Assembly (NCBI GenBank): GCA_036768485.1
Contig: JAVLUZ010000338.1
Coordinates: 62,001-126,000 of the forward strand
Source of the DNA: Mermis nigrescens
Lineage: Eukaryota; Nematoda; Enoplea; Mermithida; Mermithidae
Length of the DNA stretch: 64,000 nucleotides
Direction of reading: 5' to 3'
Shown: piece by piece, positions 2,365 through 62,957 of the stretch
Layout of the letters: every line of letters starts with the position of its first letter
Numbering within the stretch: the stretch's first letter is position 1
Program-made: the position numbers and the translations under genes
Notes under the pieces: generated by a model
Databases searched by the model: none
Seen by the model: the letters and a program-made list of their open reading frames with translations, nothing else
What the model was told of the DNA's origin: nothing

Positions 2365-2388
2365 AATACCGCAATTTTAACACATAAT

Positions 2389-4245: not shown

Positions 4246-4289
4246 TACGTTTGTCAAAATAAAAATATGCAAGTTAGTTTAACCTACAA

Positions 4290-32149: not shown

Positions 32150-32275
32150 CAGATTTTTACCCAGATCAAGATAAGGATCGGGTTCAGATTTTTGGCAGAT
32201 CCAGATCAGAAAATAACCAGATCCAGATTGTTTTGCCAGATCAAAATTTAAAAGGATCCAGATCCAGATAAAATT
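32150..32275 (+). repeat. Degenerate GATCCAGATC-type short tandem repeat
   Basis: GATCCAGAT, CAGATCAAGAT and GATCCAGATCAG words recur roughly every 12-30 bases. The copy-B equivalent is about 48330-48455. Confidence 0.6.
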
Positions 32276-32604
32276 ATTTTTTGTGCAGCAATTTGTATTG
32301 CTAAAAAGGAGGGCATAAAGCGTTCAAGCCCACATGGATTGGGGGAAATTTCAAATTCGAAAATTTGAAATTTCTCCTTCAAGAAGCAGTATTCCGAGAT
32401 AATTTAGCTTCAAATTCATGGGATCAGTGTCCATTTTTTTAATTTTAATAGATTTTGGTGTTTCTAGTTTGTGCTCGGACTGGACCCTTGTCCCTTGGTT
32501 GAACCTAAACCCCACCATTACTCCTTGCTGTGATTTATAAGCATTGTGTATTTTGCCACATTTTACAAGCAGCTTGCAGGTGCCTACAATGATGTAATTG
32601 TCAC

Positions 32605-33362
32605 TTACGAGTGAGGAGTATGTGCCCCGGGTGACATAAGGGCAAACCTCTTGAAAAATTCACCCTGCCAAATAATAGTGCTTTCAAGATTTTTACATTT
32701 TCCATAGGTGGGGCGACACAAACTTATATCTCCTAAGTCTGAAATAGCATCTTGTCCATTCCAGCTAGCTACTTGTCTTCCTTCAATCAGAAAATTGGTA
32801 ACTGCAAAGCAGATGTCCCTGCAACACCAACTAAAGTGAATTTCAAGTCTTAGACCAGTAGTCCGAAAACCATCAGCATTTTTATTCAAGTGAATGTCTT
32901 CAAATTCCTTATTTTCATAAGACCTTTTGCAGGTGTTGTAAGAAAGTAACAAATTCTCGCTTTGAAACTATGCCCTCAGAACCAAAAACCAGTATTTGTG
33001 CAGACAGTTTGAGTAATTTTCATGCACTTTATAGCAAAAACATTTATAGGTCGGATTCTGGGGACAAAAATTGTAACATTTTGTTTTTTGGGTTTAGAAA
33101 TTGAGCCCCCAGGTAGAACACATTTGATGGAGCGTAATTTATTCACTACAGGGCCGTTTCTGCTTGTGCCACAAATCTGGGAAACTTGATTACCCGCAGC
33201 ACATTTTAAAGTATATGCAAAGATTAATATAAAAAGGCATATTTTAGATAGTTTTACTGGGTTCCAATGTTTAAGCAATATTTGTGATGACAAATTTAGA
33301 TGATTTGGCTTTACACGCAAAATTTTAGATAGGACAAAAACTTGTAGATAGGTATGATGCAA
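32605..33362 (-). pseudogene. Envelope-like glycoprotein remnant (copy A)
   Basis: Reading the minus strand, the frame 33362-32976 gives a hydrophobic leader (KICLFILIFAYTLKC), an IKCVLPGG motif and a cysteine-spaced block ending TVCTNTGFWF. The next frame (32952-32605) gives FSWCCRDICFAVTNFLIEGRQVASW, then SDLGDISLC and GKC...STIIW. These match, in order, the young element's glycoprotein (leader, KVHCVLP, TICTNFGFFG, SDLGDTGGC, STIIW). The break between the two frames and the loss of the C-terminal half and anchor make it dead. It follows a gag fragment on the same strand. Confidence 0.65.
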
Positions 33363-41400: not shown

Positions 41401-42980
41401 AACAGAATATCTTATTGACCACACAGAACATTAAATTTACTTATGAAAATTAACAATACTTTCTTGAAGCATTACTTTCAATTTTAGTAAATAATCACCT
41501 TGATTTATTAAATACCAAAATGTTGCATGCATTAAGTAAAAAGAAAACATTACAGTTCTTAATTTGAAAGTTTTATTTATTAAATTTTGTCTACTCATTC
41601 AGTTGAATATAGTAACTTCTCTAAAATTTTGACAATGAACAGTATATATGATTTAAACTTACTTTTATTTTGAAGCTTTACTTTTCAAAGCTGTGCAATG
41701 CTTTTTTATATCCTGTTGTCTATATGTCTATGTTTCTGCTCATGTTCTCATTCATTTTAGATGCTGGAATGAATCCATTATTCAAAGTCAATGTAGTGGA
41801 TTTGTTTTGGCTTGCGCTTTTTAGACAGGCCAAAAATATCTACAAGGAACTGGCCCAGCATCATAACATGGAATATAGACTGACTGGCCCTAAAAAACTG
41901 ACGGCTTTTGGTTTTTTGCCGGTCAGTTACAAAATTGTTTGACAGAAGAGAAAATTTGCCTTTCACTACATCTAAGATTTATTTAACATTTAGATGGTAG
42001 GGTAAATTTTTTTTCTTGATGTATTCATTTATAAATATACTTACAATTACTGTTGCTTTACTTTTGTCAGAATACTAAACTTATTTTTCTACATAAAAAT
42101 AATATGACTTATACATTTTGCTTACTTTTAAAATTAAATTTATTTTTACTTATAAAATATGGTGCATTATTAATTGTACAGGTACTAAAAATTATATACT
42201 GCGTGAGTATTTAACTGAATATTTTACAATTTTGGATATCCTCTCTTAAATATAATGTGTTTAAAATCAATAATTAATAAAAAAAATTATTCAAAAAAAA
42301 CAAGCAATACATAAATACCATTTACTAAATATGCTGTCTTTCAAAATGAAATATTTATAGACTAAAACTCATTTCAGGAGTGCAAACAAAATAAGCTCAT
42401 GGTTCGAAAAATGAGGAAAGGATTTATTAATGATGATGGTGATGGGCTTAATTCTCAATTACACCTTTGAACTGACTTGGGTGCTTGCTAAGCAGTAGTG
42501 GAATGTGTCATATTTTATCAGCAAGATTTATTTATAATATAAGTTGGGGAAACCTGTCCATAGCTAAGTACCAAAAACATGGAGATACTATAATTTTACA
42601 TAGCAATTTGCTGATTTTTGCTAAGCAGCACAGTACTGTTTACTTAACATAACAGGTACTGTAAAAAACAGCAAAAGACACCTGCTACTTATGTCATCAT
42701 AATTACCTACTGTATTTACCTAATTAATTGATATGTCTGCTTAACCATACACTGCTGCTATACCAATCACATATGTCAAATATTACACTGTGCAATACTG
42801 CTTAAATTACACAAAGACTGCACACAAAACACCTGTACCTATACTTTGCATAGGTATGCTACTATAGACCACAGATTTGCAGTCTAGAGTAGCATAAGTT
42901 GCCACTTGCATGGCTTTCTTCCAGGTCATTTTAGGCATCACCCAACCTGGAATGACTGACTTTTACCTTTAGACCCACAT

Positions 42981-43184
42981 ATGATTCTGATTGAACACAT
43001 GCTGTGTCTGGAAGAAAATGAGGAATTTGAGAAAGAAGAAATTGAAGACCTTCTAGAGAACTTGGCTTATTTAGGTTTGAGTAATATGTCAAAAATCAAA
43101 TTCACCAAAACTTATGAAATCCCAGAACATCTATATCTAAATATGGATATTGAATTCAAGTGCGGCGGGTGCGAACGGCGATGA
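42981..43184 (+). CDS. Unidentified 67-residue ORF (copy B, intact)
   Basis: ATG at 42981 follows a pyrimidine-rich tract ending TTTTACCTTTAG, which could be a splice acceptor. The product is acidic at the start (CLEENEEFEKEEIEDLLENL) and ends with a CGGC cluster. It could be the first or last coding exon of a host gene or a transposase fragment; I recognise neither. The A copy is broken by one added base. Confidence 0.3.
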   Translation: MILIEHMLCLEENEEFEKEEIEDLLENLAYLGLSNMSKIKFTKTYEIPEHLYLNMDIEFKCGGCERR

Positions 43185-43967
43185 CTGTCCAAAACGCCAA
43201 TAAGGACGGCGGAATGATTAGCACTTAAACTTAAACTTAAGAAATGGTTAGCACTTAAATTTTAAAAGTTTAAAAAACGGAGTAATTTATAGAAAATCAT
43301 TATATTGAAAGTTTTAGATCTCAGGTTGCGATTTTTTGAAATAATCGCTTTAACTGTATGATTTGCATATACATGACACATTAATCAGTTTTTGCTCATC
43401 GGTTTAAACTAAATTTTGTGAAAAGCAAAATTTCTCTAGTACTTTGTTTTTACAATAAAAATGTACATTTGGTTAACATAATGACTTTTTACCTTAAAAA
43501 AAATTTTAGCCCAACAAAGTTAAAAACACTGTATATTTTTTCTGAATAATAAACTATCATTTATGATTTCTGAAGCTACGCTTTCGCATAGACAAAACTT
43601 AATACAATATTAACAGTTAGAATCTAATTTGAAAAACGAAGTAATTTACAAAAGATTATTATATTGAAAGTTTCAGATTTCAGGCTGGCGGAAGTAATTA
43701 AGAATTTGTGCATTTTTAAAAGCAAATTCGCAAAAACTGATTAACATGCAGAAACTAGCATGCAGAATCTGCGTGACTTGTGTCCTTTGGCGCCCTGGGC
43801 GGCAGTCCTTTTCCCCAATTGCCGCGACTACCGTCCAGATGCATTTGGCACTTACTTATTAACTTTAACCATTCATTAGAATCTTCAGTTGTTTTAACTT
43901 TTATTGTGATCATTTTTTGTGATTATACATTCATTTATTTGATTATCAGCAATTCGACGTCGTTGAC

Positions 43968-44342
43968 ATGGCGGGTGAGGATCCCATCGACGATATCGCA
44001 GGTGATGACCCATTTGTCGTCACCGGCAATAGTCAGCCCACCTTATACGCCATCCTCAAGGCCAATCGTACATTCCGGAAGAGGATCGTCCGTGCCCTTT
44101 TGAGCGAGAAGTTCTGCATTGATGATCGGCTGTCGCGCTGCTTTTGCGCTATTTGCGCAAAAAATGTGTTCAAAACGCGACGCAATGGCCACTTTACAGC
44201 AGAGAGGCTGACATATTGCGGGCAGCTGCAAATAAAAAATTTTAAATTAGTTTATTGCATATGTTGTTTAATGCGCATTGTAAATATTGCTAAACAGCTG
44301 CAAAATGAGTTGGCACTAGAGCCGCCTGGTGACGGGCAGTAG
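43968..44342 (+). CDS. Unidentified GC-richer ORF, possible exon (copy B)
   Basis: This is the partner of 24689-25054: same ATG context, 124 codons, and a different C-terminus because a one-base deletion near 44320 changes the frame. Cys-rich segment CAICAKNVF is conserved. It is unidentified, and the substitution pattern against copy A does not favour a selected protein. Confidence 0.25.
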   Translation: MAGEDPIDDIAGDDPFVVTGNSQPTLYAILKANRTFRKRIVRALLSEKFCIDDRLSRCFCAICAKNVFKTRRNGHFTAERLTYCGQLQIKNFKLVYCICCLMRIVNIAKQLQNELALEPPGDGQ

Positions 44343-44954
44343 CTGTTTGGCAATTTTTCTCGACATTTTTTTGCACTTGATTCATGCATGTTTTTTGTTT
44401 ACTCACAAGTACAGTTGTTTTGTTTTTGTTTTCTAGCGTTTTTGACCTCAATAGCCTCGGGTTGGTCATTGGGGTTCACAGTTGTGAGTTATTCAATGTT
44501 TAATGAGTGCTCCAAGGCATGCAGGCACCATGCATTCCCCAGCATTCCCGTCATTGGAGGAATGTGGCCAATGCTGGCGGGTGCCTGCCTTGCCTGTTTT
44601 GTTTTTTACATTGATGTTTAATGAGTCCAAAATAATGTGTTTGCACTAAATGTTTACCTTGCTTGTGAGTATGTCGTTTTTTTGTGACAATTTCATTGAC
44701 AATTAATTGCTGCTTGCTTCCGTAGAACATCATCACTTTGCTTCCTTAGAACATCACTACTTAAAAAATGTTGCAAAAAAGTATATTACCAAAAAATGTT
44801 ACTGTAAATATCTGGATAATGACTGTGTGAATTTGTTAGGGCTGTTAATTTCTGCGTGTTAATCAATTTTTGCTAATTTGCTTTCAAACATGCACAAATT
44901 CGTAATTACCTAGATTGCAAAAAGATTATTTAGCTTAAACAATTATGTCCCAGA

Positions 44955-45505
44955 GTTCAAATCATATTATATACAAGACTACTTTTAAAAATTTCTAGAA
45001 CAAAGCAATGTTTTACATCTAGATTTGATATCTTTTTTAAAATCAAAACTATTTACTTTCTCAAAGACATGAGTAGCGTTTTAGACGGAAGTAATTTATT
45101 TTATGGCAGAAGTGATTACAAATTTGTGCATTTTTGAAAACATATTAGCAAAAAATGATTAACACACAGAAATTAGGTTTGACCGCTCTAATTAGATTTG
45201 AAATCTTTTTAAAAATCAAAACTGTTCACTTTCTCAAGGACAAAGGTAGCATTTTAGACAGAAGTAATTTATTTTATGGCGGAAGTAATTACGAATTTGT
45301 GCATTTTTGAAAACAAATTAGCAAAAATTGATTAACACGCAGAAATTAGGTTTGACTGCGCTAATTAGATATGAAATCTTTTTAGAAATCAAAACTATTT
45401 ACTTTTTCAAGGACACAGGTAGCGTTCAGGACAGAAGTAATTTATTTTAAAGCGGAAGTAATTACAAATTTGTGCATTTTTAAAAGCAACTTAGCAAAAA
45501 TTGAT
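44955..45505 (+). repeat. Tandem array of about 172-bp units (copy B)
   Basis: Same three-unit structure as 25690-26225. One of its units differs by ACAAATTTGTGC in place of ACGAATTTGTGC. Confidence 0.7.
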
Positions 45506-48500
45506 AAACCTTATTTTGGGTCAACAATTTCGAAAAATTGAGGCACAAAGTTTTTTGACAAATATCCATGAGGCAGATGCAGCAGTGCCATTTAATATTT
45601 GTTGGCTGGTTTGTGCATTTTTCTTTGCCAAAAAAATATGAATTAGTTGATGGAACTTTTTGAAATTTATGCCTTAGTTATGCAAAACAGACTATAATTC
45701 CATCAGTTGGCATTTTTTGACATACATTTTTGGAATTTAGCTCGCTGTTTTATTCGCGAACTTTGTCTATGTTAAAAATGAGTTTTTATGAATATGCGGT
45801 CTATAAAAAGACTTTGTTTGTCTCTTTATATATCCACTATTCTTTAGCTATTATTTGACAGAGCTCTAACTTCAGATGATTCTTCTGTATAGTCAAAGGA
45901 AAAGTTGTTATATTTCAAAAGTTTTTATGTTGAATTTAATTCAAAATAACAATGCTTCTCAGCTTGACCTTCCATAGTTTTGCAAATTGAATAAGCGTCA
46001 ATCAATAACTTATTTTCTGACTAGATTTTCAGAGGTGATATTGGATGAATATAGGTGCTGGAATTAATTACGTTCTCTACAAAAGACTAGTTTGTTTTTC
46101 TTGGTATTCACACTAATGACTAGGATTTATTGTTTATTACGCGATTAAAGTATATGCTGGGATATTTTTGCATAATCTATTAAAATGACCTCGTGTACGA
46201 CTATTATCGCGAATTTACAAACAATGATTTAATTTGCTCAATGTCTGATATTTGTTTAATTTCAAATGTCATCTGCTCTCGAGCCAATGCATTTGCACTT
46301 GGAAATCCATATCAAAAGCCTTGGAAAAGATTGAAATTTCAAAATTTTGTTTTATTTACTATATTATTTTCCAATTCCTTTAAATTCCAAGTTACATTGA
46401 CAAATATCCATGAGGCAGATGCAGCAGTGCCATTTAATATTTGTCGGCTGGTTTGTGGCGGCAAAGCGCCAAAAACACTACAGTCGAGTACATAAGCCGA
46501 AAAAAATTTTGTGCTGTGAGTGCGTTTTTAACATTTCGGCTAATTTTTTGGCAATATCTCAACAACCTTTAAAGATTGAACAAATCTAAAAACAGATTTG
46601 GAATCCTGGATAAAAGCTGCATCAAATAATTAGCTTTAGTGAGACAAAGCAGAAATAAAGCAATGAAACATCAAGAAAACTCATGATACTTTTGCTAATT
46701 TCATGAAAACTGACAGTTTCTTCGCTTGTAACTCCATGTGTACCGGATAAAATTCCGGCAAACTTGCAACTTTACATTCCTCGTGAAAAACTGCATCATG
46801 AGTGCATTTAATTGTTATTTACAGACCAAATAATTGAAAATGCAGTGATTCATGTATGCACGCGGCTAAACAATACCTAAAACCCGTCCAGTTATGTTTC
46901 ACAATCATTATATAAGTATACATTGCACTAAGAAGTAAATTACTAACTTCCTTTTTGTTACCTACTAACAGGGCGCCTCTGGTACCCCATGGTAGTTTAT
47001 ATTTGTATATAGGGTACCAGAGGTGGCCCACAAAGGTAATGGCATAAATATCAATGTTTGCATAATGAAGCAAATAATAAAAAAACAATAAAGCTATGTA
47101 TTTAACCGTGACAAATGTTGATGGTTCTAAATCAAAAAGCCTTAAAAAGTGTTAAACCCGTAGTTTTTGTGTTTTATGATTGGTTTTAACAGCGGTTATT
47201 ACATGCAGAGTCAAGCAGCTTAGACCCTTTTGGTAAACATCACTGCATGTATACTCATATGGGAACCCGCCTAGGAGGCTGCTGGGTTTGTCCGTGTGAA
47301 TGGCAAATGCTCCTGCCCCCTTTTTGTAGGCCTGCATACATAGCAGGTCATTGTGTAATTGCATCTTTGGATTTTGGATTGTGGCATGATAATTTTGGCA
47401 TGATAATTTTGGGTTGGGGATTTTGGCATGATAATGTACGTTTATGTAAAACGTGATGATTCTCATTGACAAACTACTTCAGTATTGACCGTACAATACA
47501 ATAAAGAGCTAAAGACACAGTCACTTTCTGCACTTTCTGATAGGTCAATTAAGACACAGTCACTCTCTGCACTTTAATTAAGACACAGTCACTTTCTGCA
47601 CTTTCTGAAAGGTCAATTTTGAAGATTTTGGCACGAAAATCAATTTTTGCTCATTGCTTTGCACTAAACTCTTACAAGACTATTTCATTTCTCAAAGATA
47701 AACGTCAATGCTAAAGGAGAAGTAATGAAGCATTTATGCTCTTGTCAAAGTTTAGTGTAAAGCAATGAGCAAAAATTGATTTTTGTGCCAAAATCTTCAA
47801 AATTGACTTTTTAGAAAGTACAGAAAGTGACTGTGTCTTAATTACTTCTTCCGTTATTTAAAAGTTAAAAAAAGAGTTATAGGCTAACAAAGTAAATAGT
47901 TTTAAATTCTGAAAAGATTTTAAATTTAAATAGCTCAGTCAAACATTATTTTGGCATGCTAATACAAAACATTTCATTTATCAAAGATAAACGCGTATTG
48001 TACAATTTGGAAATAAATTGCACAAAGTTTTTTGACAAATATCCATGAGGCAGATGCAGCAGTGCCACAAATCGGATAAATGGGCCATAAGATTTGCAAG
48101 GTTGTCACCCTGGATGCATGATAACGATGGCAACATATTTGTGTTTTGCATTATCCACCGTTTTATGTCCAATGCTTCTACAGTGTTCTGTATATTTGCA
48201 TTCTCGCATTCTAATTCACCTATTTTATGATCCATGTGCAGATTAACGGTACCTATTCTCTTTTTATATTGCAGAAGTACTTTGTACAAATTTGGGTTAT
48301 GTACTTGAATTGTCATTACTAGCATTGTAAAAGATCCAGATTTTTACCCAGATCAAGATAAGGATTGGGTTCAGATTTTTGGCAGATCCAGATCAGAAAA
48401 TAACCAGATCCAGATTGTTTTGCCAGATCAAAATTTAAAAGGATCCAGATCCAGATAAAATTATTTTTTGTGCAGCAATTTGTATTGCTAAAAAGGAGGG

Positions 48501-48805
48501 CATAAAGCGTTCAAGCCCACATGGATTAGGGGGAAATTTCAAATTCGAAAATTTGAAATTTCTCCTTCAAGAAGCAGTATTCCGAGATAATTTAGCTTCA
48601 AATTCATGGGATCAGTGTCCATTTTTTTTAATTTTAATAGATTTTGGTGTTTCTAGTTTGTGCTCGGACTGGACCCTTGTCCCTTGGTTGAACCTAAACC
48701 CCACCATTACTCCTTGCTGTGATTTATAAGCATTGTGTATTTTGCCACATTTTACATGCAGCTTGCAGGTCGCCTACAATGATGTAATTGTCACTTACGA
48801 GTGAG

Positions 48806-51043: not shown

Positions 51044-51047
51044 ACAG

Positions 51048-51536
51048 TGTAATTAAGCTAAATTTGCTTAATTCGTATTTTAGTCATCAACGTATTTTGA
51101 ATTCCTTCGCATACTTTTAGACCACCAGCTTGATCTCTAAAAACTTATATTCTTGGAATTTCAGTCGAAACATTCCTTAGAATCATGAGAATTAATTTGT
51201 CGTGTTAATGTCCAAGTTTTTAGGTCATTTCGGAGATCTCTATCTTTCATTCGTTTAGTTTGAATTACCACTGCGCATGACTATCCCAGGAACCGTTCAG
51301 CTATCCCACGCATGTATCCCAGAATCGCTAAGTTCCAGAGATTCCTTTAATATCTATTTAGCAATATATAAGTTCGCTGCATATTTATTATATTCAGTGC
51401 ATAATCTGTTTTGCGCTCATTGTGTACTCCCTACTTATCGTATTACGGGCGCCCGAAACGTCACCTTGCACTATTTAGCTTTCCAATATTCATTACTCAT
51501 ATTAAACCTGAACCGGCCAACAACTTTTTCATTACA
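51048..51536 (+). repeat. 5' LTR of E2
   Basis: 489 bp, TGTAATTAAGC...ATTACA. It matches the 3' LTR at 60821-61309 except T versus G at position 7. The outermost six bases form an inverted repeat. Confidence 0.95.
51365..51398 (+). promoter_or_regulatory. LTR core promoter: TATA box and TCAGT initiator
   Basis: TATATAAG at 51365-51372 is followed by TCAGT at 51394-51398. The initiator A is 31 bases after the first T of the TATA box, which is the canonical spacing. TCAGT is the arthropod-style initiator. The predicted RNA start, and so the U3/R border, is at about 51396. The 3' LTR has the same pair at 61138-61171. Confidence 0.6.
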
Positions 51537-51560
51537 TTTGGTGCGTTAGCTCTAGTGCGC
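51537..51560 (+). other. Candidate primer binding site of E2
   Basis: Just after the LTR end, TTTGGTGCGTTAGC contains the TGG expected opposite a tRNA CCA end at 51539-51541. I could not match the following bases to a specific tRNA. Confidence 0.35.
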
Positions 51561-51740
51561 ATTGTTTTGCGGCTGTACAAACCCGAATAAGCGGCTTATG
51601 CACTTGTATCTGTTTCTTCATTCATGCCGACATTGCGAAACCTGAATAAGCCGCTTGTACTATTTTTATTCTGTTTCTTCGTTCATCCTGGCATTGCAAT
51701 AATTAATTGCGAAGTTGCATAGTGTTATAATAATACATAA

Positions 51741-52049
51741 TCGTTATTGCTTTACGAAACGGCTATCCCATTATCACGGCGATTTGAAGAGATTGTTCTC
51801 GAAGCCCAAAGAGAAGCTAATCAAAGTAATTCGCAACGTGCTTTACGTAGCTCTCGTTTGTCATTACCGAACCTCTTAGATTTGCCTATTTCATTATCAA
51901 CCCAAATCAAAAGTGAAAATCCATTTGGCGTTTTTCCCAAGAGTAACGTTTCAACTCATACGGAAAGTTCGAAAAATTTAGATCCCAAATTAAATAAGAA
52001 AAAATTATCGCAAATCTTGCCTAAAATAAAAATCAAAAATATTTCTAAA
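51741..52049 (+). other. Open frame upstream of the first Gag ATG
   Basis: The Gag frame is open for about 309 bases before its first ATG at 52050, with protein-like composition (for example RRFEEIVLEAQREAN and SSRLSLPNLLDLPISLS), directly after a TAA at 51738-51740. It has no ATG. It may be translated from a non-AUG codon, joined by splicing, or be an inherited N-terminus whose start was lost. Confidence 0.35.
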
Positions 52050-55000
52050 ATGGAAGATCAAGTTGTTGCTCTGTTACAAGAAACTGTCACTCGAATGCAA
52101 GATCTCTATGAACAACGTCCAGTCTCTTTCGTAACATCACCCCCGCTTCAAGTTTTCTGCGGAGATGGGGAGCAAAACTGGACCGAGTGGGAAAGGCAGT
52201 TCAACAACCTTGCGATTTTAGGCGGAGCTACAAATTTTGAAAGAAAAATCGCTCTCTTATCCACTTATCTTAGAGGAGCAGCTTTAACATTTTTTCATGA
52301 CCTCAATCAGCAAACCCCTGCTTTACAAACTTGGAACGAATATTCTCAAAATTTTAGACTTAGGTTCCCCGATAATCAACATATAGACATTAAACGCGAT
52401 CAATTAGTTGCTAGGTACCAATTGCCCCATGAATCTGTTTTGCAATACGCAGCAGAGATTAGGAGGTTGGCCAAAAGAGCCCAGCCGGGGTGGAATGGTA
52501 ATGATGAAAACGATTTCATAAAAAGCCATTTTGTCTCAAAATTGTTATCCCATTTACGAATCTGGGTGAGAAATGCATCCCCAAAAACTTTTGAAGAAGC
52601 CGTTTCGGAGGCATACAAGCAGGAAGTTAATCAAAATTACGACAGTCAGCAAAATTTTACGAACCCCACGATGTTAAAACCTGAAAATTTGCTTGTTTCT
52701 CAATTTCCGTCTATGACTTCTCCTAGTGCACCAAACCTCAGTAGCCAAAGTTCATCCGCAATAAAAAATTATAATAATTCTTTTCGATTGACTCAACCGT
52801 CTGTAGAAAGGCAGTATTCTGGGCAGTATCCCAGTTGGACTAATTTTAACAACAGAAGTCAGGGCCCTGCACAAAGTTCTTCTCGGGATGCTCATATTAC
52901 TTGCTTTTTTTGTGGTAAGCTGGGACATCGAATAGCTAATTGTAGAACGAAACAGCGAGAAAATCAACAAATGTTTCAGAATCGCTTTAATCAAAATCGC
53001 TTTAGTACCCCAGTGAATGATCAAAATAGTCGATCGTACTCAAATCAGTCGAGTGTAAATCAAAATAGACGTTTTTCTCGAAATTTTTCGCAAGGTGAAC
53101 CTCCGTCACATCATCCCCGTGTGAGTAGGCAAAATTTCGTGCGGGCAGCCCATGCGGAGGATGAGGGGTCTTATACTGGGCAAGGCGTTGAAAATGATCA
53201 TGGAGAAGGTTTTGATGCTCTCAATTGCACAGATCCTGACCTTTTTCAAGCCAATTCTCAGTTTTTGCGTTTTCCTTCCATGAGGACGCATAATGTCATT
53301 GCGTCCGCCCTCACTAATGATGAAATTCGGGTCGTTCCCACCTTTGAAACCGGGGTGGAAGGTGGGGTATGTGAAGATGGTGTGTGCAGCACGGTTTCTT
53401 TAAGTGGCAAAATAAGATGTCGTTCCGCGTCCCCACATTGTGCCGTTAGTGAGGAAAGGAGTACACAACTGTTCTCAAAATCACACCATTCTTTTGTCGG
53501 CCGTAGTGTTGTGAAAAGCGTAGGAATAGTGATAAGGTGCGCACCGCTTTTGTACATATCGCCGAAAATTTTCATTTTGCATATTTTTCTTGCGTTTTGC
53601 ATCCCATATTTTTCTGCAACAGAAAATTCACCCTCAAAATCTTACTTTTTATGTCAATCCCATAGAAATGGTCATGCTCTCTCAATACCTAAAAAAGTTC
53701 ATTGCGTGTTGCCTGAAACTTTCGATAGAGCTGCAACTTCAGCGCAGATTAAAATTTGGACAGCAAGAAATAAACCTCTTGAAGCAAAAGCAGCGAAATG
53801 TTATCGTAAAACTCGTACTATATGTACAAATTTTGGATTTTTCGGCTCGAAAGGAATTGTCAGCGATACCTCATTTGAAGTTCCCTCTTCTGTTTGGGAA
53901 TGTAATCGAGTTTTAGAAACAAAAATTCTGGACAATACACCATTAGTAGAACTTCACCCCAATCTTTGGTCGACTAATAATTCCCTAAGTGTTTCTTTTA
54001 TTTATTGCTGCTCAGACCATTGCTTCACTCAGACTAATTTTATTCTTGAATTAGGCACTGTTTCCTCATATGATGGCGAAAAAGTCATGAGCGATCTCGG
54101 TGATACAGGCGGTTGTAAAGCCTCAAATGGTTATTGTAATCATACTTTTAGTACAATAATCTGGGAAAAGGATATTTTTAAATCAGTCTGTCCTCTCATG
54201 AGTAGTGGTCCTCATTTAGCCCAAATTTTGGAAAAGTATGTTACCGTTGAAAAAGTTCAAGCTGCTTTCACTATGTTATATCTGTCTAAAAGATGTAACC
54301 TGCAAAATGCTTATGAAACCGCACAAGGTGTTGTACTTCAATTTGAAAATTCCCAAGATATGAGATTGATTAATGCAAGAAATTCAACCCAAAATTCTGA
54401 TGCCGATCCTGTAAACGCTAAATTACAATTTCTTTTTGAAAAAATTAAGAATTTTGAATCCAAAATATTCAGAAATATATGGCTTGAATTGTGCAGGTCA
54501 GCAGATCGATATTTGCAACTTGTTTGGCAGTTTTTGCAACTTGATCCCACCCTTGGTGCCAGAGCTCTGTTAGGTAGAAAAGATATTCATGCCTCATTTG
54601 CCGGTGAAGCTCTAATTGTTTGGGACTGCTCCATGGTTATCCCTGATAAGATATTTTGGAATTATACTCTAAATAATGTTTGCTATCAATTTTTGCCAGT
54701 TATTTATAATGGAAAAACCTTGTTTGTAATCCCAGGCAGTGATGATTTAGTTTCTAATTCCCCCACTATTGATTGTAGTCGTAAATTAACTGGTATTTTT
54801 AAAAGAAAAAATTCGTGGTTCACAATTTTTGGCTCAGTACACGTCACTTCCGTACCTCTAGAGATTGCATGGCACTCAAATTGGTCCGCCTATACGTTCT
54901 ACGCCCCACCATTATTTCATGAAAGTTTTTTCACTGAAACTTTTCAGTCAATTGGTCTAATTAGAAGTTATATGTTCAAAACAAACATTTTAGAAAACCA

Positions 55001-55130
55001 GCTAAATCGCTTATCAAATTATACCGCTGAATTATCCCTAAATCCAAATGTTATTTCTGAATTTTTAAAGGTACCGGTGAATTCGTTTTTGACTCAGCGA
55101 GAGAATTTAGTCACTCCCTTGAACACTTAA
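52050..55130 (+). CDS. Gag - envelope-like glycoprotein fusion ORF of E2
   Basis: From the first ATG the product is 1026 residues. Residues about 35-180 are a Retrotrans_gag-type capsid region (FCGDGEQNWTEWERQFNNL, TYLRGAALTFF). A CCHC zinc knuckle, CFFCGKLGHRIANC, is at 285-298 (52902-52943). An acidic and Ser-rich linker follows, then a signal-peptide-like hydrophobic stretch at about 507-524 (53568-53621), then a Cys-rich ectodomain: KVHCVLP, TICTNFGFFG, IYCCSDHC, SDLGDTGGC, STIIW, and a stem to 1026. The viral origin of the glycoprotein is not identified. It lacks a membrane anchor in this frame; the anchor is in the overlapping -1 frame. Env in the middle of the Gag frame is not the usual layout. 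Confidence 0.8.
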   Translation: MEDQVVALLQETVTRMQDLYEQRPVSFVTSPPLQVFCGDGEQNWTEWERQFNNLAILGGATNFERKIALLSTYLRGAALTFFHDLNQQTPALQTWNEYSQNFRLRFPDNQHIDIKRDQLVARYQLPHESVLQYAAEIRRLAKRAQPGWNGNDENDFIKSHFVSKLLSHLRIWVRNASPKTFEEAVSEAYKQEVNQNYDSQQNFTNPTMLKPENLLVSQFPSMTSPSAPNLSSQSSSAIKNYNNSFRLTQPSVERQYSGQYPSWTNFNNRSQGPAQSSSRDAHITCFFCGKLGHRIANCRTKQRENQQMFQNRFNQNRFSTPVNDQNSRSYSNQSSVNQNRRFSRNFSQGEPPSHHPRVSRQNFVRAAHAEDEGSYTGQGVENDHGEGFDALNCTDPDLFQANSQFLRFPSMRTHNVIASALTNDEIRVVPTFETGVEGGVCEDGVCSTVSLSGKIRCRSASPHCAVSEERSTQLFSKSHHSFVGRSVVKSVGIVIRCAPLLYISPKIFILHIFLAFCIPYFSATENSPSKSYFLCQSHRNGHALSIPKKVHCVLPETFDRAATSAQIKIWTARNKPLEAKAAKCYRKTRTICTNFGFFGSKGIVSDTSFEVPSSVWECNRVLETKILDNTPLVELHPNLWSTNNSLSVSFIYCCSDHCFTQTNFILELGTVSSYDGEKVMSDLGDTGGCKASNGYCNHTFSTIIWEKDIFKSVCPLMSSGPHLAQILEKYVTVEKVQAAFTMLYLSKRCNLQNAYETAQGVVLQFENSQDMRLINARNSTQNSDADPVNAKLQFLFEKIKNFESKIFRNIWLELCRSADRYLQLVWQFLQLDPTLGARALLGRKDIHASFAGEALIVWDCSMVIPDKIFWNYTLNNVCYQFLPVIYNGKTLFVIPGSDDLVSNSPTIDCSRKLTGIFKRKNSWFTIFGSVHVTSVPLEIAWHSNWSAYTFYAPPLFHESFFTETFQSIGLIRSYMFKTNILENQLNRLSNYTAELSLNPNVISEFLKVPVNSFLTQRENLVTPLNT

Positions 55131-56170
55131 TTGTTAATGGCACGCATTCTATCTTAGGAACTGCAGATAAGATTATCTCTGGACCAATTCAACTAATCCT
55201 CAATGTTGCTATTATTGGTGCAATTATTTTTGCATGTATATATGTGATCATATGGTATCGCTCTATTTGCTCTAAACCATGTAGTTTTTGTAGGAAAAAA
55301 TCTAGACGTAGAAATTCTCACGGACGAGCAACGATTTGCAAAGGAGGTCAGTCATTGTACGTGCGGAAACGAAAAATGGATGAATCTAATCCCGAGGACG
55401 TTGGAGCGAATGTTACGGTAGAAAATCTGAAAGAGGAGACTATTGATGATAAGGAAGAGACTTCACATCAAGTATGTGACTCCCCAAAGTCTTCTGTAGG
55501 ATCACCACTTACTCAGCTCCTAGTGCGTGCATTTACACCTTTTCTTGAACCTCAAATGAATCCGGTAAACCAATCTGTTCAAGTAAAAAAATGTGCAGCT
55601 ATTGAGTTATTAAAAAATTCTACCCCTACAGTGAAAGTCAAAATTTTAAATCGAATGAACCCCCTAGTTTCAACTATTTCACAAGCCTTAATAGATACTG
55701 GTTCAGAAATTACTCTAATCGATGAAAATCTTTGCAGTGAACTTAATCTTACGCTTTATCCTCCCGTTATTAATACTATCACTCAGGCAGGAGGACATCA
55801 AGCCAAAGTTTTAGGTACTGTTTGGTTATGCGTTTGCTTTGAAAGTGAAAAAGGATTTGCAACCCCAGAATTTTTGCAAGCCCAAGTCATTGAGAATTGC
55901 GTGACTAAATTCTTAATCGGGACAGACTATTTGCGTCGTTTTGCTCATCTCATTGTTTCATGGAAGACTGGAAAAGTTTTATTTGGCAAATATGAATTAA
56001 AAATGCCTGAGCCAAACCAATTAAGCGATAAACCTAGAGGAGTTGCTACAATAAAATGTGAAACTATTATCCCTCCACGATCGATGTTTTTTGTTCATCT
56101 CAGTATTAGTAAATCATATGGTAATTTTAATAATCTCATTTTTCGAGCCCAATGCAACCTGTATGCGTAA
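55061..56170 (+). CDS. Glycoprotein membrane anchor and aspartic protease of E2
   Basis: This frame starts with the stem of the glycoprotein, then a hydrophobic anchor at about 55184-55258 (ILNVAIIGAIIFACIYVIIW), a Cys- and Arg-rich cytosolic tail (CSKPCSFCRKKSRRR), an acidic linker and an aspartic protease with the DTGSEITLI active site at 55694-55720. The later ILG-type flap partner is FLIGTDYLRRF at about 55912. The protease would mature the polyprotein as a dimer. No early ATG fits, so expression by frameshift from the upstream ORF (heptamer at 55064) is likely. The topology is self-consistent: Gag and protease on the cytosolic side, ectodomain in the lumen. Confidence 0.75.
   Translation: MFKGTGEFVFDSAREFSHSLEHLIVNGTHSILGTADKIISGPIQLILNVAIIGAIIFACIYVIIWYRSICSKPCSFCRKKSRRRNSHGRATICKGGQSLYVRKRKMDESNPEDVGANVTVENLKEETIDDKEETSHQVCDSPKSSVGSPLTQLLVRAFTPFLEPQMNPVNQSVQVKKCAAIELLKNSTPTVKVKILNRMNPLVSTISQALIDTGSEITLIDENLCSELNLTLYPPVINTITQAGGHQAKVLGTVWLCVCFESEKGFATPEFLQAQVIENCVTKFLIGTDYLRRFAHLIVSWKTGKVLFGKYELKMPEPNQLSDKPRGVATIKCETIIPPRSMFFVHLSISKSYGNFNNLIFRAQCNLYA
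55064..55070 (+). promoter_or_regulatory. Candidate -1 ribosomal frameshift heptamer TTTAAAG
   Basis: T TTA AAG is in the correct phase for the Gag-glycoprotein frame and fits the X XXY YYZ rule. A -1 slip enters the frame that opens right after a TGA at 55058-55060 and holds the membrane anchor and protease. The overlap of the two frames is only 55061-55130. No pseudoknot was folded. A one-base lesion is the alternative. Confidence 0.45.
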
Positions 56171-59100
56171 GCACGCAATGTATGTCTCTTCTTGTATTGA
56201 TAATCCAGTTAATGACTCAATCAGCACTAGTGTAATTAATTTATCTAAAGATCCCTTAATCTTATATCAAGGCACAAAACTAGGAGAAGTTCGCCTACTA
56301 GCTGAACCTACTTTTTCGCAAAATGTGTCGACCATTAAAAAAGGTAATTCTCAAGCCAAATCCGAAAATAAGATTATAAATGAAATACCTGGAAACCCTA
56401 GCTTGGATCCCAAAAAGGCTAGTAAATTGCTCGAACTTTTAAATAAATATTCATATTTATTTGTTGTAGACGATAAGGATCTGGGAAAAACTCATCTCAT
56501 ATCTCATAATATTGATACCGGTGATGCTAAACCTTTTAAACAGCAACCTTACAGAGTACCCTATAAACAAAGAGAAATTATCGACAATGAAATTAAGAAA
56601 ATGCTTGATAATAAAATCATCTCTTATTCGCATAGTCCCTGGGCCAGTCCCATTGTAATGGTCCCAAAGAAAACAGGAGGATTTCGGTTTTGCGTAGATT
56701 ATCGGAAACTCAATAGTTTAACAAAAAGAGATAATTATCCCTTGCCCCGTATTGATGACATTTTGGATACTCTGAATGAAAGCGCCTATTTTACGACTTT
56801 AGACCAAGCCTGGGGTTATTGGCAAATCCCAGTGAGTGAAAATGATAAGGAGAAGACGGCCTTTATCACTTACAACGGTCTCTATCATTTTAATGTTCTC
56901 CCTTTTGGCTTATGTAATGCCCCAGGAACCTTCCAACGTCTCATGGACCTTCTTCTCTCAGGCTTGCAATGGGACATATGTTTAGTTTATCTTGATGATA
57001 TACTGATTTTTAGTAGAACATTTGAGCAACACCTAGAGCGTATATCTCTCATATTTGATAAATTATCTCAAGCTGGTTTAAAATTAAGGCTTGAAAAATG
57101 TAAATTCGCAAAACATGAGACCTCATATCTTGGGTATATAATTTCGTCAGCTGGTATAAATCCCGATCCGTTAAAAATAAGAGCTGTAGAGAATTTTGTA
57201 GTTCCAAACTCTACGGAAAATGTAAAAAGCTTTCTCGGATTAGCTGGTTACTATAGACGCTTTATACCTAATTTTGCATGTGTTGCGGAACCTCTGTACG
57301 CTTTGTTGCGCAAAAATGTCAAATTTTCATGGAATAAAAGTTGTGAGATCGCATTCATCACTTTAAAAAAATTGCTCACTACTGCTCCAGTTTTAATTTA
57401 TCCCGATTATTCTAAGCCTTTTATAATTCACACAGATGCATCTGGTAAAGGATTAGGTGCTATTCTCTCGCAGGAAGTTGATGGGAAGGATCACCCTATT
57501 GCATACATTAGCCGAAAATTGAAACTCGCAGAACAAAATTATCCCGTTTTTGAGTTAGAAGCCTTGGCTGTAGTCTGGGCGGCTAAGCAGTTCCGTACAT
57601 ATCTATTTCAACAGAAAGTTATCATTGTTACTGATCATGCTGCTTTACAGTATATCCTCAAAAAGCCTAACCCTTCCCCAAGAATTTCTCGATGGGGCCT
57701 TGCTCTACAGGAGTATGAACTTGAAATTCGTCATCGTCCAGGTAAAAATCACGGAAATGTTGATGCTCTCTCAAGAATTTTTGTGAGCTCAGTTGTGAAA
57801 ATGAAAGAAATCAATCTCTCCTATGATAATCTAGTGGAAAATCAAAAAGATGATACTTTCTGTTCTACTATGATTAAATTTTTAGTGAGCGGTGAGCTAC
57901 CTGAAAATGACCAAGAAACTCGTCGTATTTTGCATACTCACAATAATTTTGCGTTTTTGGATAATCTCTTATTTTACATTGGACCGCCAAGTCGGAAGGA
58001 TCCGGTTGAACTCATGGTCATCCCACCTGCATTGCGACCCCAAATTTTACACATGTTTCATGATGACATGTTCTCTGGTCATTTTGGCGTTAAGCGTTCC
58101 TACAACCGTATTCGTGAAAGATTTTACTGGCCTAATTGCTATAAAGATGTGAAAGAGCATTGTAATTTGTGTGAAAAATGTTTAAGCCGTAAATCACCAT
58201 CTAAACCAATACGGGCATCTTTGGTTCCCATCCCTGTGAATGGACCGTTTGATAGAGTTGCTACTGACGTTCTAGGTCCCCTACCGTTAATGCAATATGG
58301 AAATAAATATATTATAGTTTTTACTGATTATCTCACAAAATATTGTATGACTGCTTGCCTACCTCAAGCCACGGCGGAGCATACCGCTCAAGCATTTCTC
58401 CTCAAAGTTATTTTAATTCACGGATCCCCTAGACAACTTTTGTCAGATCAAGGAACAAATTTTTTGTCAAATGTCATAACCTCAATTTGTAAATTTTGTA
58501 ACATTGATAAAGTAAATACGACCCCTTACCACCCCCAAACCGATGGTCTTACTGAAAGATTCAATAAAACTCTAGCTAATACTTTATCAATGTATGTTAA
58601 TGATAATCACAATAATTGGGATGAATTTTTACCCTATGCAACGTTCGCATATAATAGTTCTGTTCATGACTCGACGGGATATAGCCCATTTTTCCTCTTA
58701 TATGGCCGAGAAGTGAAATTTCCCATTGAAGCAGCCATAAGCATGAAAATCAGCCGCTATTCTATTGATTTAGATGATTATATCTCCCATTTCTATAAAT
58801 TTATGAATAAGGCTTGGGAAAATGCTCGTATAAATATTCAAAATGCTCAGATCGCTCAAAAATTTTATTATGACCGTAAATCTCATGATGTTGAAATATT
58901 TGTTGGGGACACTGTGTATAAACATAACCCCACACTTAAACCTGGCCAATGTCGCAAGTTTGCTCACTTTTGGGAAGGGCCATACACTGTTGAGGCAATT
59001 AAATATCCCAATGTTTTTATTAGAAACTCGAAAAATCACGTAGAACGAATTCACGTTAATCGGATTAAAAAAGTTCGAAAAATGGACAAAAAAATTGATT

Positions 59101-59213
59101 CAGTTGCAACTTTAGATGATTCAAAAGGTCAAAAATCAGATCTAGCACCCAACGTCCCAATTAAACAGACTCACCCTTACAATTTAAGACCTAGAATTCA
59201 AAACGAAAATTAA
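56055..59213 (+). CDS. Pol of E2: reverse transcriptase, RNase H, integrase
   Basis: RT shows FCVDYRKLNSLTKRDNYPLP, FTTLDQAWGYWQIP, LPFGLCNAPGTF and the catalytic YLDD at 56988-56999. RNase H has HTDASGKGLGAIL, ELEALAVVWA and TDHAAL. Integrase has an H..CNLCEKC zinc region (about 58075-58175), core residues in VATDVLGP, LLSDQGTNF and the Glu of TDGLTERF, and a C-terminal GPY module (FWEGPYTVEAIKYPN). All catalytic residues seen are intact over about 1000 codons. The ORF overlaps the protease frame by about 115 bases and is +1 relative to it; real homology begins near 56145. It ends TAA at 59211-59213. Confidence 0.9.
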   Translation, partial: NVKLLSLHDRCFLFISVLVNHMVILIISFFEPNATCMRKHAMYVSSCIDNPVNDSISTSVINLSKDPLILYQGTKLGEVRLLAEPTFSQNVSTIKKGNSQAKSENKIINEIPGNPSLDPKKASKLLELLNKYSYLFVVDDKDLGKTHLISHNIDTGDAKPFKQQPYRVPYKQREIIDNEIKKMLDNKIISYSHSPWASPIVMVPKKTGGFRFCVDYRKLNSLTKRDNYPLPRIDDILDTLNESAYFTTLDQAWGYWQIPVSENDKEKTAFITYNGLYHFNVLPFGLCNAPGTFQRLMDLLLSGLQWDICLVYLDDILIFSRTFEQHLERISLIFDKLSQAGLKLRLEKCKFAKHETSYLGYIISSAGINPDPLKIRAVENFVVPNSTENVKSFLGLAGYYRRFIPNFACVAEPLYALLRKNVKFSWNKSCEIAFITLKKLLTTAPVLIYPDYSKPFIIHTDASGKGLGAILSQEVDGKDHPIAYISRKLKLAEQNYPVFELEALAVVWAAKQFRTYLFQQKVIIVTDHAALQYILKKPNPSPRISRWGLALQEYELEIRHRPGKNHGNVDALSRIFVSSVVKMKEINLSYDNLVENQKDDTFCSTMIKFLVSGELPENDQETRRILHTHNNFAFLDNLLFYIGPPSRKDPVELMVIPPALRPQILHMFHDDMFSGHFGVKRSYNRIRERFYWPNCYKDVKEHCNLCEKCLSRKSPSKPIRASLVPIPVNGPFDRVATDVLGPLPLMQYGNKYIIVFTDYLTKYCMTACLPQATAEHTAQAFLLKVILIHGSPRQLLSDQGTNFLSNVITSICKFCNIDKVNTTPYHPQTDGLTERFNKTLANTLSMYVNDNHNNWDEFLPYATFAYNSSVHDSTGYSPFFLLYGREVKFPIEAAISMKISRYSIDLDDYISHFYKFMNKAWENARINIQNAQIAQKFYYDRKSHDVEIFVGDTVYKHNPTLKPGQCRKFAHFWEGPYTVEAIKYPNVFIRNSKNHVERIHVNRIKKVRKMDKKIDSVATLDDSKGQKSDLAPNVPIKQTHPYNLRPRIQNEN
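56141..56146 (+). promoter_or_regulatory. Candidate +1 shift site TTT CGA between protease and RT
   Basis: In the protease frame the codons are TTT CGA. A +1 slip of TTT onto TTC would enter the Pol frame exactly where the conserved linker continues. UUU followed by a CGN codon is the type of site used for +1 shifting in influenza PA-X. The older element E1 reads through the same place without a shift (TTTTTCACCC), so a single-base lesion in E2 is equally possible. Confidence 0.3.
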
Positions 59214-59267
59214 TCTATATTGTATATTCATAATATTAATTGATATTTACTTTTAAAATTATTTATC

Positions 59268-59281
59268 CCTGCTATTTTTAG
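59268..59281 (+). promoter_or_regulatory. Candidate splice acceptor for the 3' ORF of E2
   Basis: A pyrimidine-rich CCCTGCTATTTTTAG ends at 59281, and the 3' ORF frame is open from exactly the next base, 59282. The TAG itself is the upstream in-frame stop. This is how env genes of errantivirus-like elements are expressed, from a spliced RNA. Confidence 0.5.
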
Positions 59282-60439
59282 ACAACACCAAGTCAAACCC
59301 CTACGCCGAATGATGACTCGCTTCAAGAGAAAACCCCATCAGAAAATAGTCACAACTGGAAACGAGCCAAACCCAGAAAGGAGGCGATGCCTTCTGTTCT
59401 CGTAGATCAATGGATGCATCATTTGCATCGATGCCCCCTCGATGCGCGATTATTCCCAGTGCCTGGAAAAATCCCAGTGGATTTAGCGTGCGAGATGCTT
59501 CGGAAAGACCCCCATGTGTCGAATGTACTTGGTGTCTACACCATGGATTTCTACGCTCGTGATGCTGACACCTCGGCTGAAAAAAATGAGTCTACCCCTG
59601 ATAACGAGAAACCCTTCTGCTATATGGTGGCCATTGTTCGTCCCGATGGCTATGGCTGCAGCTTCAATATCGATCGGCTAGGTGGTGTCCCACGTCAATT
59701 GCGACTGTTGTTATTCGACCCCAACATTGAATATATCGGCTATGATTTCTCTAGCGGCTTAGCGAATATCGATCAGAATTTCAAAGGGCGCACAGTCGAC
59801 ATCGATATTTTTTCCACAGTGCGTTTTATCGATGAGTACGACGTCTTGCCCGGCATCTTTAGCAAGGTCGGCCCCAATCTTTCGAAGGTGGCCACACAAT
59901 TGTTCCAATGCGAAGACACCGTCGTCCGTCTAATTGGTGGAGAAGATCACACCATTTCGTCCATCTACTATGCTCTTCTGGTGCTCGATATATGCGCATA
60001 TCTCGAGTTGCATTATGATAAGCTAACCGCCGTTGCCAGCAAAATCGATGGTATCCGTCTTTTTCCCTTGAAAAATCCGCGTATTTGGCGTCAACCCGAT
60101 ATGATCGCGGGTCCAAGTGGAGCTCCACCACCGCCGCAGCAGCAAATTGTGCAAAAGCCACTAATTGAGCCGGTAAACAACCCACTTCGTTCGGCAGATG
60201 AGCATCGATTTGCGATCCTGATCAAGGAGATGGTGCAATCGTTCAACATGCGTTTTCGAAATTACCGTCAGTCGTTTTGGACGGTAGGATACAAAGAGTT
60301 CTTCCAAGGCTGGCGTGGTGAGATGTTGAGCGCGTTCCCTGGTCACCCCTACAAAATCAGTAAGCGGGAGAGAAGGATGTGCAAGGCGTTGATGTTGCGC
60401 GTTGAATCGAAGGGCATCTTCAAATCTACTGGTCAATGA
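59282..60439 (+). CDS. Extra 3' ORF of E2, exonuclease-fold-like, in the usual env position
   Basis: The frame runs from the splice acceptor through the first ATG at 59387 (350 residues from there) to TGA at 60437-60439. There is no signal peptide, membrane segment or Cys pairing, so it is not an envelope. Residues about 45-215 follow the pattern of a DEDD 3'-5' exonuclease/RNase H fold: LGVYTMDF as strand 1, FNIDRLGGVPRQLRLLLFDPNIEYIGYD, VDIDIFSTV, NLSKVATQLF, and a YYALLVLDICAYLELHYDKL segment like the motif III helix. The first motif keeps D but lacks E and the second Asp seems replaced, so it may be inactive. A Pro/Gln-rich linker and a basic C-terminal domain follow. A sampled line here is 53% GC against 40% in pol, suggesting capture from elsewhere. 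Fold call is tentative; the ORF is solid. Confidence 0.55.
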   Translation, partial: TTPSQTPTPNDDSLQEKTPSENSHNWKRAKPRKEAMPSVLVDQWMHHLHRCPLDARLFPVPGKIPVDLACEMLRKDPHVSNVLGVYTMDFYARDADTSAEKNESTPDNEKPFCYMVAIVRPDGYGCSFNIDRLGGVPRQLRLLLFDPNIEYIGYDFSSGLANIDQNFKGRTVDIDIFSTVRFIDEYDVLPGIFSKVGPNLSKVATQLFQCEDTVVRLIGGEDHTISSIYYALLVLDICAYLELHYDKLTAVASKIDGIRLFPLKNPRIWRQPDMIAGPSGAPPPPQQQIVQKPLIEPVNNPLRSADEHRFAILIKEMVQSFNMRFRNYRQSFWTVGYKEFFQGWRGEMLSAFPGHPYKISKRERRMCKALMLRVESKGIFKSTGQ

Positions 60440-60810
60440 TTCTGATTTTTTTGGGCCTGAGCTTTTATGTTAGGGTTTTTTCAAGGGCGCCCATACTAAG
60501 TACATCGTATTTATATTTGTTGTTACGCTACATACATTTATGCTTGAACGTAAAGTCTGGCTAAAGTGATTTGCTTAAAATTTATATAAAATTATTTAAA
60601 ATATCCCAATTCTCAGTTAATGGATTTGATTTTTGATTTTTCCCTCTGAATGTGCATGAAAACGAAAAGTTTACACCTCAAATCAGGTTTAATTTCCGGA
60701 TCAATGTGCGATTCATAATATTTCATCCCTGGAATGATTTCTAAACGTCTTCTCTAGGATAAATCCCAAATGTCTACATTAAATAGGTACCCCAGCGGCT
60801 TTGTTTTAAT
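60440..60810. other. 3' untranslated region of E2
   Basis: About 370 bases between the extra ORF and the polypurine tract; no feature seen. Confidence 0.5.
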
Positions 60811-60820
60811 GCGTGGAGAA
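60811..60820 (+). other. Candidate polypurine tract of E2
   Basis: GCGTGGAGAA abuts the 3' LTR start at 60821. It is short but in the obligatory position. Confidence 0.45.
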
Positions 60821-61309
60821 TGTAATGAAGCTAAATTTGCTTAATTCGTATTTTAGTCATCAACGTATTTTGAATTCCTTCGCATACTTTTAGACCACCA
60901 GCTTGATCTCTAAAAACTTATATTCTTGGAATTTCAGTCGAAACATTCCTTAGAATCATGAGAATTAATTTGTCGTGTTAATGTCCAAGTTTTTAGGTCA
61001 TTTCGGAGATCTCTATCTTTCATTCGTTTAGTTTGAATTACCACTGCGCATGACTATCCCAGGAACCGTTCAGCTATCCCACGCATGTATCCCAGAATCG
61101 CTAAGTTCCAGAGATTCCTTTAATATCTATTTAGCAATATATAAGTTCGCTGCATATTTATTATATTCAGTGCATAATCTGTTTTGCGCTCATTGTGTAC
61201 TCCCTACTTATCGTATTACGGGCGCCCGAAACGTCACCTTGCACTATTTAGCTTTCCAATATTCATTACTCATATTAAACCTGAACCGGCCAACAACTTT
61301 TTCATTACA
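60821..61309 (+). repeat. 3' LTR of E2, with ATTAAA poly(A) signal
   Basis: 489 bp, TGTAATGAAGC...ATTACA, identical by eye to the 5' LTR except at position 7. ATTAAA at 61274-61279 lies about 30 bases before the LTR end and is a plausible polyadenylation signal. Confidence 0.95.
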
Positions 61310-61366
61310 ACAGGAAAACTCAATGGATTAACATAATCAGGTTTTATGATTCTTTGGAGCAGGCCT

Positions 61367-62300: not shown

Positions 62301-62957
62301 ATGCAATCATTAAAAATGCTTCTTGAGCATCCTTTCACGTGTATAGTTTCTGGACCAACAAAGTCTGGGAAGACATCCTTCATTCAACAAATAATTCAAA
62401 ATAGAGAAAGGCTCATAAATACTAAAATATCAAAAATTTGGTGGTGTTTTACAGAGAATCAACCACTCTACCAAAAAGTAAAAAACGTCACATTTGTAGA
62501 AGGTTTTCCAGATTTTAATTGTATTAAGCAATATAGTCCAACACCACAGTTAGTGGTGTTGGATGATTTAATGCAAGAAAGCAAAGGCAAGCCACAGTTA
62601 ATTCAGCTCTTCACTCGTGGTTGTCATCATTGGAATGTCAGCCTTATTCATGTTGTCCACAATTTATTTTTCGATGGTCTTCGAACTTCGCGAGTGAATT
62701 CAGATTATATAGTGCTGCTTAAAAATCCAAGTGATAAACTGCAAGCACAGGTTTTAGCACGCCAGCTTTATCCTTCAAATTCAAAATGTTTCTTAGAAGC
62801 CTTTATTGATGCAACTAGTCAGCCCCATGGTTACCTTTTGATCGATTTGACACAAAATGCTAATGATCTATATAGGCTAAAAACAGACATTTTCAGTACC
62901 CATCCAACTGTTTATATCCCAAAATCTATAAATAATAATAATGCAAGAGATAATTGA
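62301..62957 (+). CDS. Polinton packaging ATPase (A32/FtsK-HerA type)
   Basis: The 218-residue product opens LEHPFTCIVSGPTKSGKTSF, with a Walker A motif GPTKSGKT at 18-25 and a Walker B LVVLDD at 84-89. A sensor-like HHWNVSLIHVVHNLF stretch and a C-terminal PHGYLLIDL block typical of the Polinton and adintovirus family follow. Length is normal for the family. The enzyme powers DNA entry into preformed capsids. No stop or frameshift is seen. It starts 22 bases after the plus-strand TATA core and is followed after 6 bases by the next ORF. Confidence 0.85.
   Translation: MQSLKMLLEHPFTCIVSGPTKSGKTSFIQQIIQNRERLINTKISKIWWCFTENQPLYQKVKNVTFVEGFPDFNCIKQYSPTPQLVVLDDLMQESKGKPQLIQLFTRGCHHWNVSLIHVVHNLFFDGLRTSRVNSDYIVLLKNPSDKLQAQVLARQLYPSNSKCFLEAFIDATSQPHGYLLIDLTQNANDLYRLKTDIFSTHPTVYIPKSINNNNARDN

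Follow-up and report, generated by a model that had tools for sequence, protein, structure and literature searches.

A retroelement with its glycoprotein between Gag and protease

The stretch of DNA analysed here, 64,000 nucleotides of the nematode Mermis nigrescens (contig JAVLUZ010000338.1 of assembly GCA_036768485.1, positions 62,001 to 126,000 of the forward strand) and hereafter called the window, contains a long terminal repeat (LTR) retroelement of the Ty3/gypsy type whose domains follow the order Gag, zinc knuckle, predicted class III glycoprotein (Env), membrane anchor, protease, reverse transcriptase (RT), RNase H and integrase. The features of the element and its open reading frames (ORFs) are the following:

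51048-61309, + strand: whole LTR element, Ty3/gypsy type, in three reading frames in this copy
51044-51047 (5' copy) and 61310-61313 (3' copy), no strand: 4-bp target-site duplication ACAG, directly outside the LTRs
51048-51536, + strand: 5' LTR, 489 bp, TG...CA, one mismatch to the 3' LTR
51537-51556, + strand: putative primer-binding site adjoining the 5' LTR, proposed from its position and a TGG motif
51741-55130, + strand: ORF1, 1129 residues; Gag, CCHC knuckle and glycoprotein ectodomain
52050-53010, + strand: Gag, first ATG at 52050; Ty3-type capsid at about 52230-52649, CCHC knuckle at 52899-52946
53547-53618, + strand: internal signal-like hydrophobic segment preceding the ectodomain, from hydropathy
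53619-55130, + strand: ectodomain of the predicted class III glycoprotein; match to PF24664 at 54231-54866, long helix of the model at 54408-54542
55061-56170, + strand: ORF2; membrane anchor, tail and protease
55196-55252, + strand: transmembrane anchor in the protease frame, followed by a presumed cytosolic tail
55619-55939, + strand: aspartic protease (RVP)
56055-59213, + strand: ORF3, back in the Gag frame; RT, RNase H and integrase
56661-57143, + strand: RT (RVT_1, 2.7e-34)
57405-57716, + strand: RNase H (PF17917, 1e-39)
58020-58535, + strand: integrase zinc-binding and core domains (PF17921, PF00665)
59282-60439, + strand: accessory ORF (ORF4), 385 residues, between integrase and the 3' LTR
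60821-61309, + strand: 3' LTR, 489 bp

A reading made from the letters of the window, without database searches (hereafter the sequence-only reading), had bounded the element at 51044..61313, in agreement with the LTRs and the ACAG repeats that flank them. The single mismatch between the LTRs and the target duplication indicate that the element inserted recently. Gag is of the Ty3 type (PF03732, 5e-10; PF19259, 4e-8), the knuckle of ORF1 matches zf-CCHC below the cut-off (1.9e-3, 18.7 bits against 20.8), and the protease of ORF2 falls half a bit short of that for RVP (7.5e-4, 20.2 bits against 20.7). The glycoprotein scores well above its cut-off of 27 bits with PF24664, the family of Monjiviricetes viral fusion glycoproteins (6e-17, 61.2 bits). 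The closest relative of pol with a solved structure is the yeast Ty3 Gag-Pol polyprotein (2e-123), and no BEL/Pao family was found among the Pfam matches of the element. The order of the pol domains, the Ty3-like pol, the Ty3-type capsid with its knuckle, and the LTRs with their target duplication all place the window copy in Ty3/gypsy.

The Gag-Env-Pro-Pol arrangement is confirmed in this element. PF24664 lies between the zinc knuckle of Gag and the protease, as the sequence-only reading had it, and the frames that it described, one shared by Gag and ectodomain and another by anchor and protease, are ORF1 and ORF2. The domain scores exclude a chance origin, as do the 84 match rows found in the genome and the stop-free linkers of all loci inspected, both described below.

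Gene order and reading frames in other copies

A search of the source genome (524 Mb, 860 contigs) with the glycoprotein gave 2,030 first-look candidates, of which the best 81 were scored, yielding 84 match rows; some copies appear in these rows as two pieces, and more distant copies with a different order may exist. Open frames of 2,015-2,648 residues hold 26 of the 84 rows. Twenty loci belonging to about a dozen families were fetched, chosen to span the range of identities and partly for long frames, and the domains of the window element were mapped onto them by tblastn. RT lies downstream of the glycoprotein in all 20, and in none was a glycoprotein found downstream of integrase, most of the fetched stretches ending less than 2 kb from pol, so that sequence further downstream is visible only in the window copy. 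Protease was detected between glycoprotein and RT in 18 loci (the exceptions being L021 and L022) and capsid upstream of the glycoprotein in 17 by tblastn; Gag of L021 was recognised by Pfam, and no capsid was seen in L024 or L026. The order proposed from the window alone thus recurs across the loci examined, among which the env-after-pol arrangement that the sequence-only reading named as a refutation was not seen, and proteins from other sources show parts of it.

Capsid to integrase form a single frame, free of stops and frame changes, in the intact copies, which make up nine of the 20 loci and seven families (2,397-2,648 residues, stop to stop; no run of N inside any of the nine frames). 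Three copies with an identical glycoprotein hold all domains within a single frame of 2490 residues. Because such near-identical copies carry all domains in one frame, the three frames of the window copy, including the early stop of its ectodomain frame before the anchor, are the result of decay of that one copy. Programmed frameshifting at the Env-anchor junction, where the window frames overlap, was rejected on the same grounds, the near-identical copies reading through in one frame. Gag and Env apparently lie in different frames in L021, and L022 shows a similar break. Frameshifting between Gag and Env was also weighed for the L021 family and discarded; the overlaps in L021 and L022 contain no in-phase slippery heptamer, and L029, 99% identical to L021, joins Gag and Env in one frame.

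A second, decayed element in the window has its glycoprotein fragment (PF24664, 1.6e-17) likewise ahead of RT, and its apparent protease region has no Pfam match:

749-5255, + strand: second, decayed element, glycoprotein preceding RT
749-1354: glycoprotein
1574-2239: anchor region and apparent protease
2937-3827: RT
4515-5255: integrase

Class of the glycoprotein

A structural model was used to place the glycoprotein among the classes of fusogens. The model was built with an alignment of five relatives, the alignment-free model being useless (predicted local distance difference test score, pLDDT, of 32). All 50 proteins among the matches listed in a comparison with the PDB are herpesvirus glycoprotein B (gB). 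Together with the score for the curated family PF24664, this gB/G-like modelled fold assigns the glycoprotein to the class III fusogens, with a predicted activity in membrane fusion.

Age, selection and relatives elsewhere

In an alignment of 17 glycoprotein rows 57 columns are invariant, of which 14 are cysteines. The ratio of nonsynonymous to synonymous substitution (dN/dS) of Env was determined for nine pairs. In four of them dS is saturated; in the other five, where dS is finite at about 1 to 2.5 and the estimates are therefore rough, dN/dS is 0.095-0.130, values that place the glycoprotein under purifying selection. Env and RT-RNase H distances are correlated (Mantel r 0.75, a value that none of 9,999 permutations reached), and the trees of the two regions, built for 12 loci, have their main groups in common and no strongly supported conflict. 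Co-divergence with RT and purifying selection argue that the glycoprotein is no recent insertion, which contradicts the possibility, raised in the sequence-only reading as a potential refutation, of a secondary insertion. One old capture followed by common descent would be the simplest reading of these data.

Five proteins from JGI, ENA and NCBI sources match the glycoprotein and back the layout to differing degrees. P0002 combines Gag and Env, and P0004 Env, protease and RT, in a single ORF with all domains above cut-off; in P0001 Env is joined by a protease below cut-off, in P0003 by a protease-like motif recognised by eye only, and P0005 has about 540 residues upstream of Env that are Gag-like by eye and have no Pfam match. 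In a tree, P0001 groups with some of the families of the source genome and the other four with L021, two long branches making the placement unsure; the five do not form one group separate from the families of that genome. No relatives were found in the viral_contigs and genome_contigs collections, which hold viruses and prokaryotes, so that this absence means little.

Topology and expression

In a hydropathy scan of 15 glycoprotein rows, 14 have a signal-like segment ahead of the ectodomain (that of L021 falling below the threshold) and 14 have an anchor behind it, the exception being the window ORF1, which stops earlier; the anchor segment of the window element reaches a Kyte-Doolittle (KD) value of 2.83 in the near-identical copy L009. 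Signal-like segment and anchor are 541-558 residues apart in all 13 rows that have both. The linkers between capsid and Env are free of stops in 12 of 12 loci; were a linker non-coding, the probability of this would be at most about 1e-9 in each case. Skipping of the 2A type was rejected, no NPGP motif being present in the capsid-Env or anchor-protease junction of any of the 12 loci.

The sequences at hand show the order, the purifying selection on the tested domains, the co-divergence with RT and, for intact copies, the single frame; from them we further infer that the genomic RNA is translated as one polyprotein. The single polyprotein threaded through the membrane that the sequence-only reading had proposed is borne out by these copies as far as the open frame, the signal and the anchor are concerned; its translation as one chain is an extrapolation from them. 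Our preferred reading, to which we give a probability of about 0.62, is that of an envelope-carrying Ty3/gypsy element whose class III glycoprotein has long stood between Gag and protease and is made as part of one membrane-threaded polyprotein.

Under this proposal, translation of the genomic RNA would yield a single chain, the open frames measuring about 2,400-2,650 residues from stop to stop. Gag would fold in the cytosol, and the ectodomain would enter the endoplasmic reticulum by means of the internal signal. Signal peptidase would cleave behind the signal on the lumenal side, leaving Gag briefly tethered to the membrane, and the anchor would bring the chain back to the cytosol, where protease and pol would fold. 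On that side the protease of the element would release Gag, the Pol enzymes and the tail of Env. In this way equal numbers of shell, entry and enzyme proteins would be made at a single membrane site, from which particles may bud with a gB-like Env suited to entry from cell to cell or into the germline.

Several observations weigh against this reading. Frame breaks, stops or truncation affect the remaining 11 of the 20 loci, and the nine with a single frame represent a biased rate, because long open frames were among the reasons for choosing a locus. Weak additional hydrophobic segments are found in several rows, and confidence in the glycoprotein model is low over its last third, with pLDDT below 50 across most of residues 337-485. 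Equimolar Gag and Pol are, moreover, unusual among retroviruses. Finally, a Met lies no more than 35 residues from the start of the ectodomain in eight of 12 loci and would allow internal initiation there, and the gypsy element Cer1 of Caenorhabditis elegans, which lacks a stop between gag and pol, yields a spliced product according to the cited part of its description (PMC10309623).

The last two points also speak for a different account, unlikely in our view and still to be taken seriously, in which the layout is real and Env is expressed by splicing, either because removal of the Env block yields Gag-Pro-Pol or because an Env mRNA has its own start. The shared frame would then be a by-product of keeping the unspliced RNA free of stops, and the amounts of Gag and Env could differ. 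A strong splice donor (no more than one mismatch to MAG/GTRAGT) is present in only one of 12 capsid-Env linkers and in none of 12 anchor-protease linkers, in a scan that covered strong donors only, and four of the 12 loci, the window family included, have no Met within 50 residues upstream of the ectodomain. The single frame, the signal and anchor on either side of the ectodomain, and linkers without stops, without 2A motifs and mostly without strong donors make the threaded polyprotein the likeliest mechanism.

That the glycoprotein no longer serves entry and is retained as a membrane anchor of the particle or as a fusogen of host cells appears improbable. Its fused position would presumably make Gag membrane-bound whatever the fusion activity, and yet selection acts over the whole ectodomain, and the invariant columns and cysteines described above are as expected of an active fusogen. 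Least credible of all is a secondary insertion of the glycoprotein into one element, or an assembly artefact: the original finding was based on one well-kept copy, and against this stand the match rows on many contigs, the second element in the window, the proteins from JGI, ENA and NCBI, and trees without supported conflict.

Accessory ORF and other features of the window

ORF4 gave no match in Pfam (E 5), NCBIfam (E 1) or a protein search (E 0.001), and its three PDB matches all had E values of 0.5 or above. Two identities were considered for it, the true envelope and an exonuclease comparable to the bdelloid ORF3 (PMC5408684, cited in part), and no profile or protein match was found for either. 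ORF4 is a repeated family, with 121 match rows in the source genome, several of them downstream of the same elements, and diverges more than RT between families. In another family an ORF of at least 290 residues follows pol (L017, 8846-9901; L018, 9032-9901; L024, 8727-9901); it does not match the 385-residue ORF of the window, and no Pfam or NCBIfam match was found for it in L017, the copy tested.

Large repeats occupy about 20460-33000 and 39738-48520 of the window, with constant spacings of about 19.28 and 16.18 kb and an inner repeat of 3.1 kb, suggestive of a segmental duplication or a duplicated large element. Beyond the retroelement, an ORF at 62301-62957 (+ strand) has weak similarity to packaging ATPases of the Pox_A32 type (7e-5, at the cut-off) and is followed by further ORFs up to the end of the window; this region is perhaps a Polinton/Maverick-like element lying beside the retroelement.

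Comparison with known elements

The element resembles the Metaviridae, and Errantivirus in particular, in its LTRs, its Ty3-type capsid, the order protease-RT-RNase H-integrase and a captured Env. In contrast, Env lies here between Gag and protease in one frame, whereas the International Committee on Taxonomy of Viruses (ICTV) describes the Env of Metaviridae, where present, as encoded downstream of integrase (PMC7879559), a position in which it was seen in none of our 20 loci. The Env of Errantivirus is, in the cited part of one account, likely of baculovirus origin (PMC12440569), unlike the class III assignment made here from Pfam and fold; the difference does not settle the matter, since type III fusion glycoproteins are reported from some gypsy elements of insects (PMC13172572).

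Among BEL/Pao elements, Anakin is reported to carry a chuvirus-derived glycoprotein, and Roo, Tas and Cer-7 are said to have an envelope-like gene downstream of the polyprotein (both from the cited part of PMC7642597). Anakin and the present element are thus both LTR elements with such a glycoprotein, and differ in that the pol of Anakin is of the BEL/Pao and ours of the Ty3 type. The Anakin glycoprotein is of the PF24664 type. The absence of a stop between gag and pol is shared with Cer1, for which the cited part of the source describes no glycoprotein in the polyprotein and an extra protein, CERV, made from a spliced RNA (PMC10309623). Other layouts are described in the cited parts of accounts of bdelloid elements (PMC5408684) and of Troyka (PMC12440569).

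We found no published account of a Gag-Env-Pro-Pol order among the papers listed by our literature searches (titles and the openings of abstracts). Env-bearing gypsy elements are reportedly widespread in animal phyla according to work by Chary and Hayashi of 2025, known to us from citations and a meeting report, which may include this clade or order. The claim of the sequence-only reading that no described family has this layout accords with the ICTV text and our searches and is qualified by that work; novelty of the gene order is likely.

In flaviviruses, the capsid, an internal signal, the lumenal envelope, an anchor, and the cytosolic protease and polymerase follow one another in one threaded chain. 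The likeness is one of topology only, the genomes being unrelated. We regard it as an even bet that the elements described here represent an old and widespread clade in which a single membrane-threaded Gag-Env-Pro-Pol polyprotein supplies the whole particle, as a retroelement counterpart of the flavivirus strategy.

Implications

Descriptions of these element families include the order gag-pol-env, and it is commonly assumed that Env is produced from an RNA of its own. An envelope long kept within the gag-pol frame shows a different way from retrotransposon to infectious element and, if the proposed mechanism is true, would add a mode of retroviral envelope expression besides splicing and a separate promoter. 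It also poses two testable questions, the first being how a single chain can be cleaved on the two faces of a membrane and the second how particles are assembled when shell, envelope and enzyme proteins are equally numerous. Searches for envelopes restricted to the region downstream of integrase would overlook such elements.
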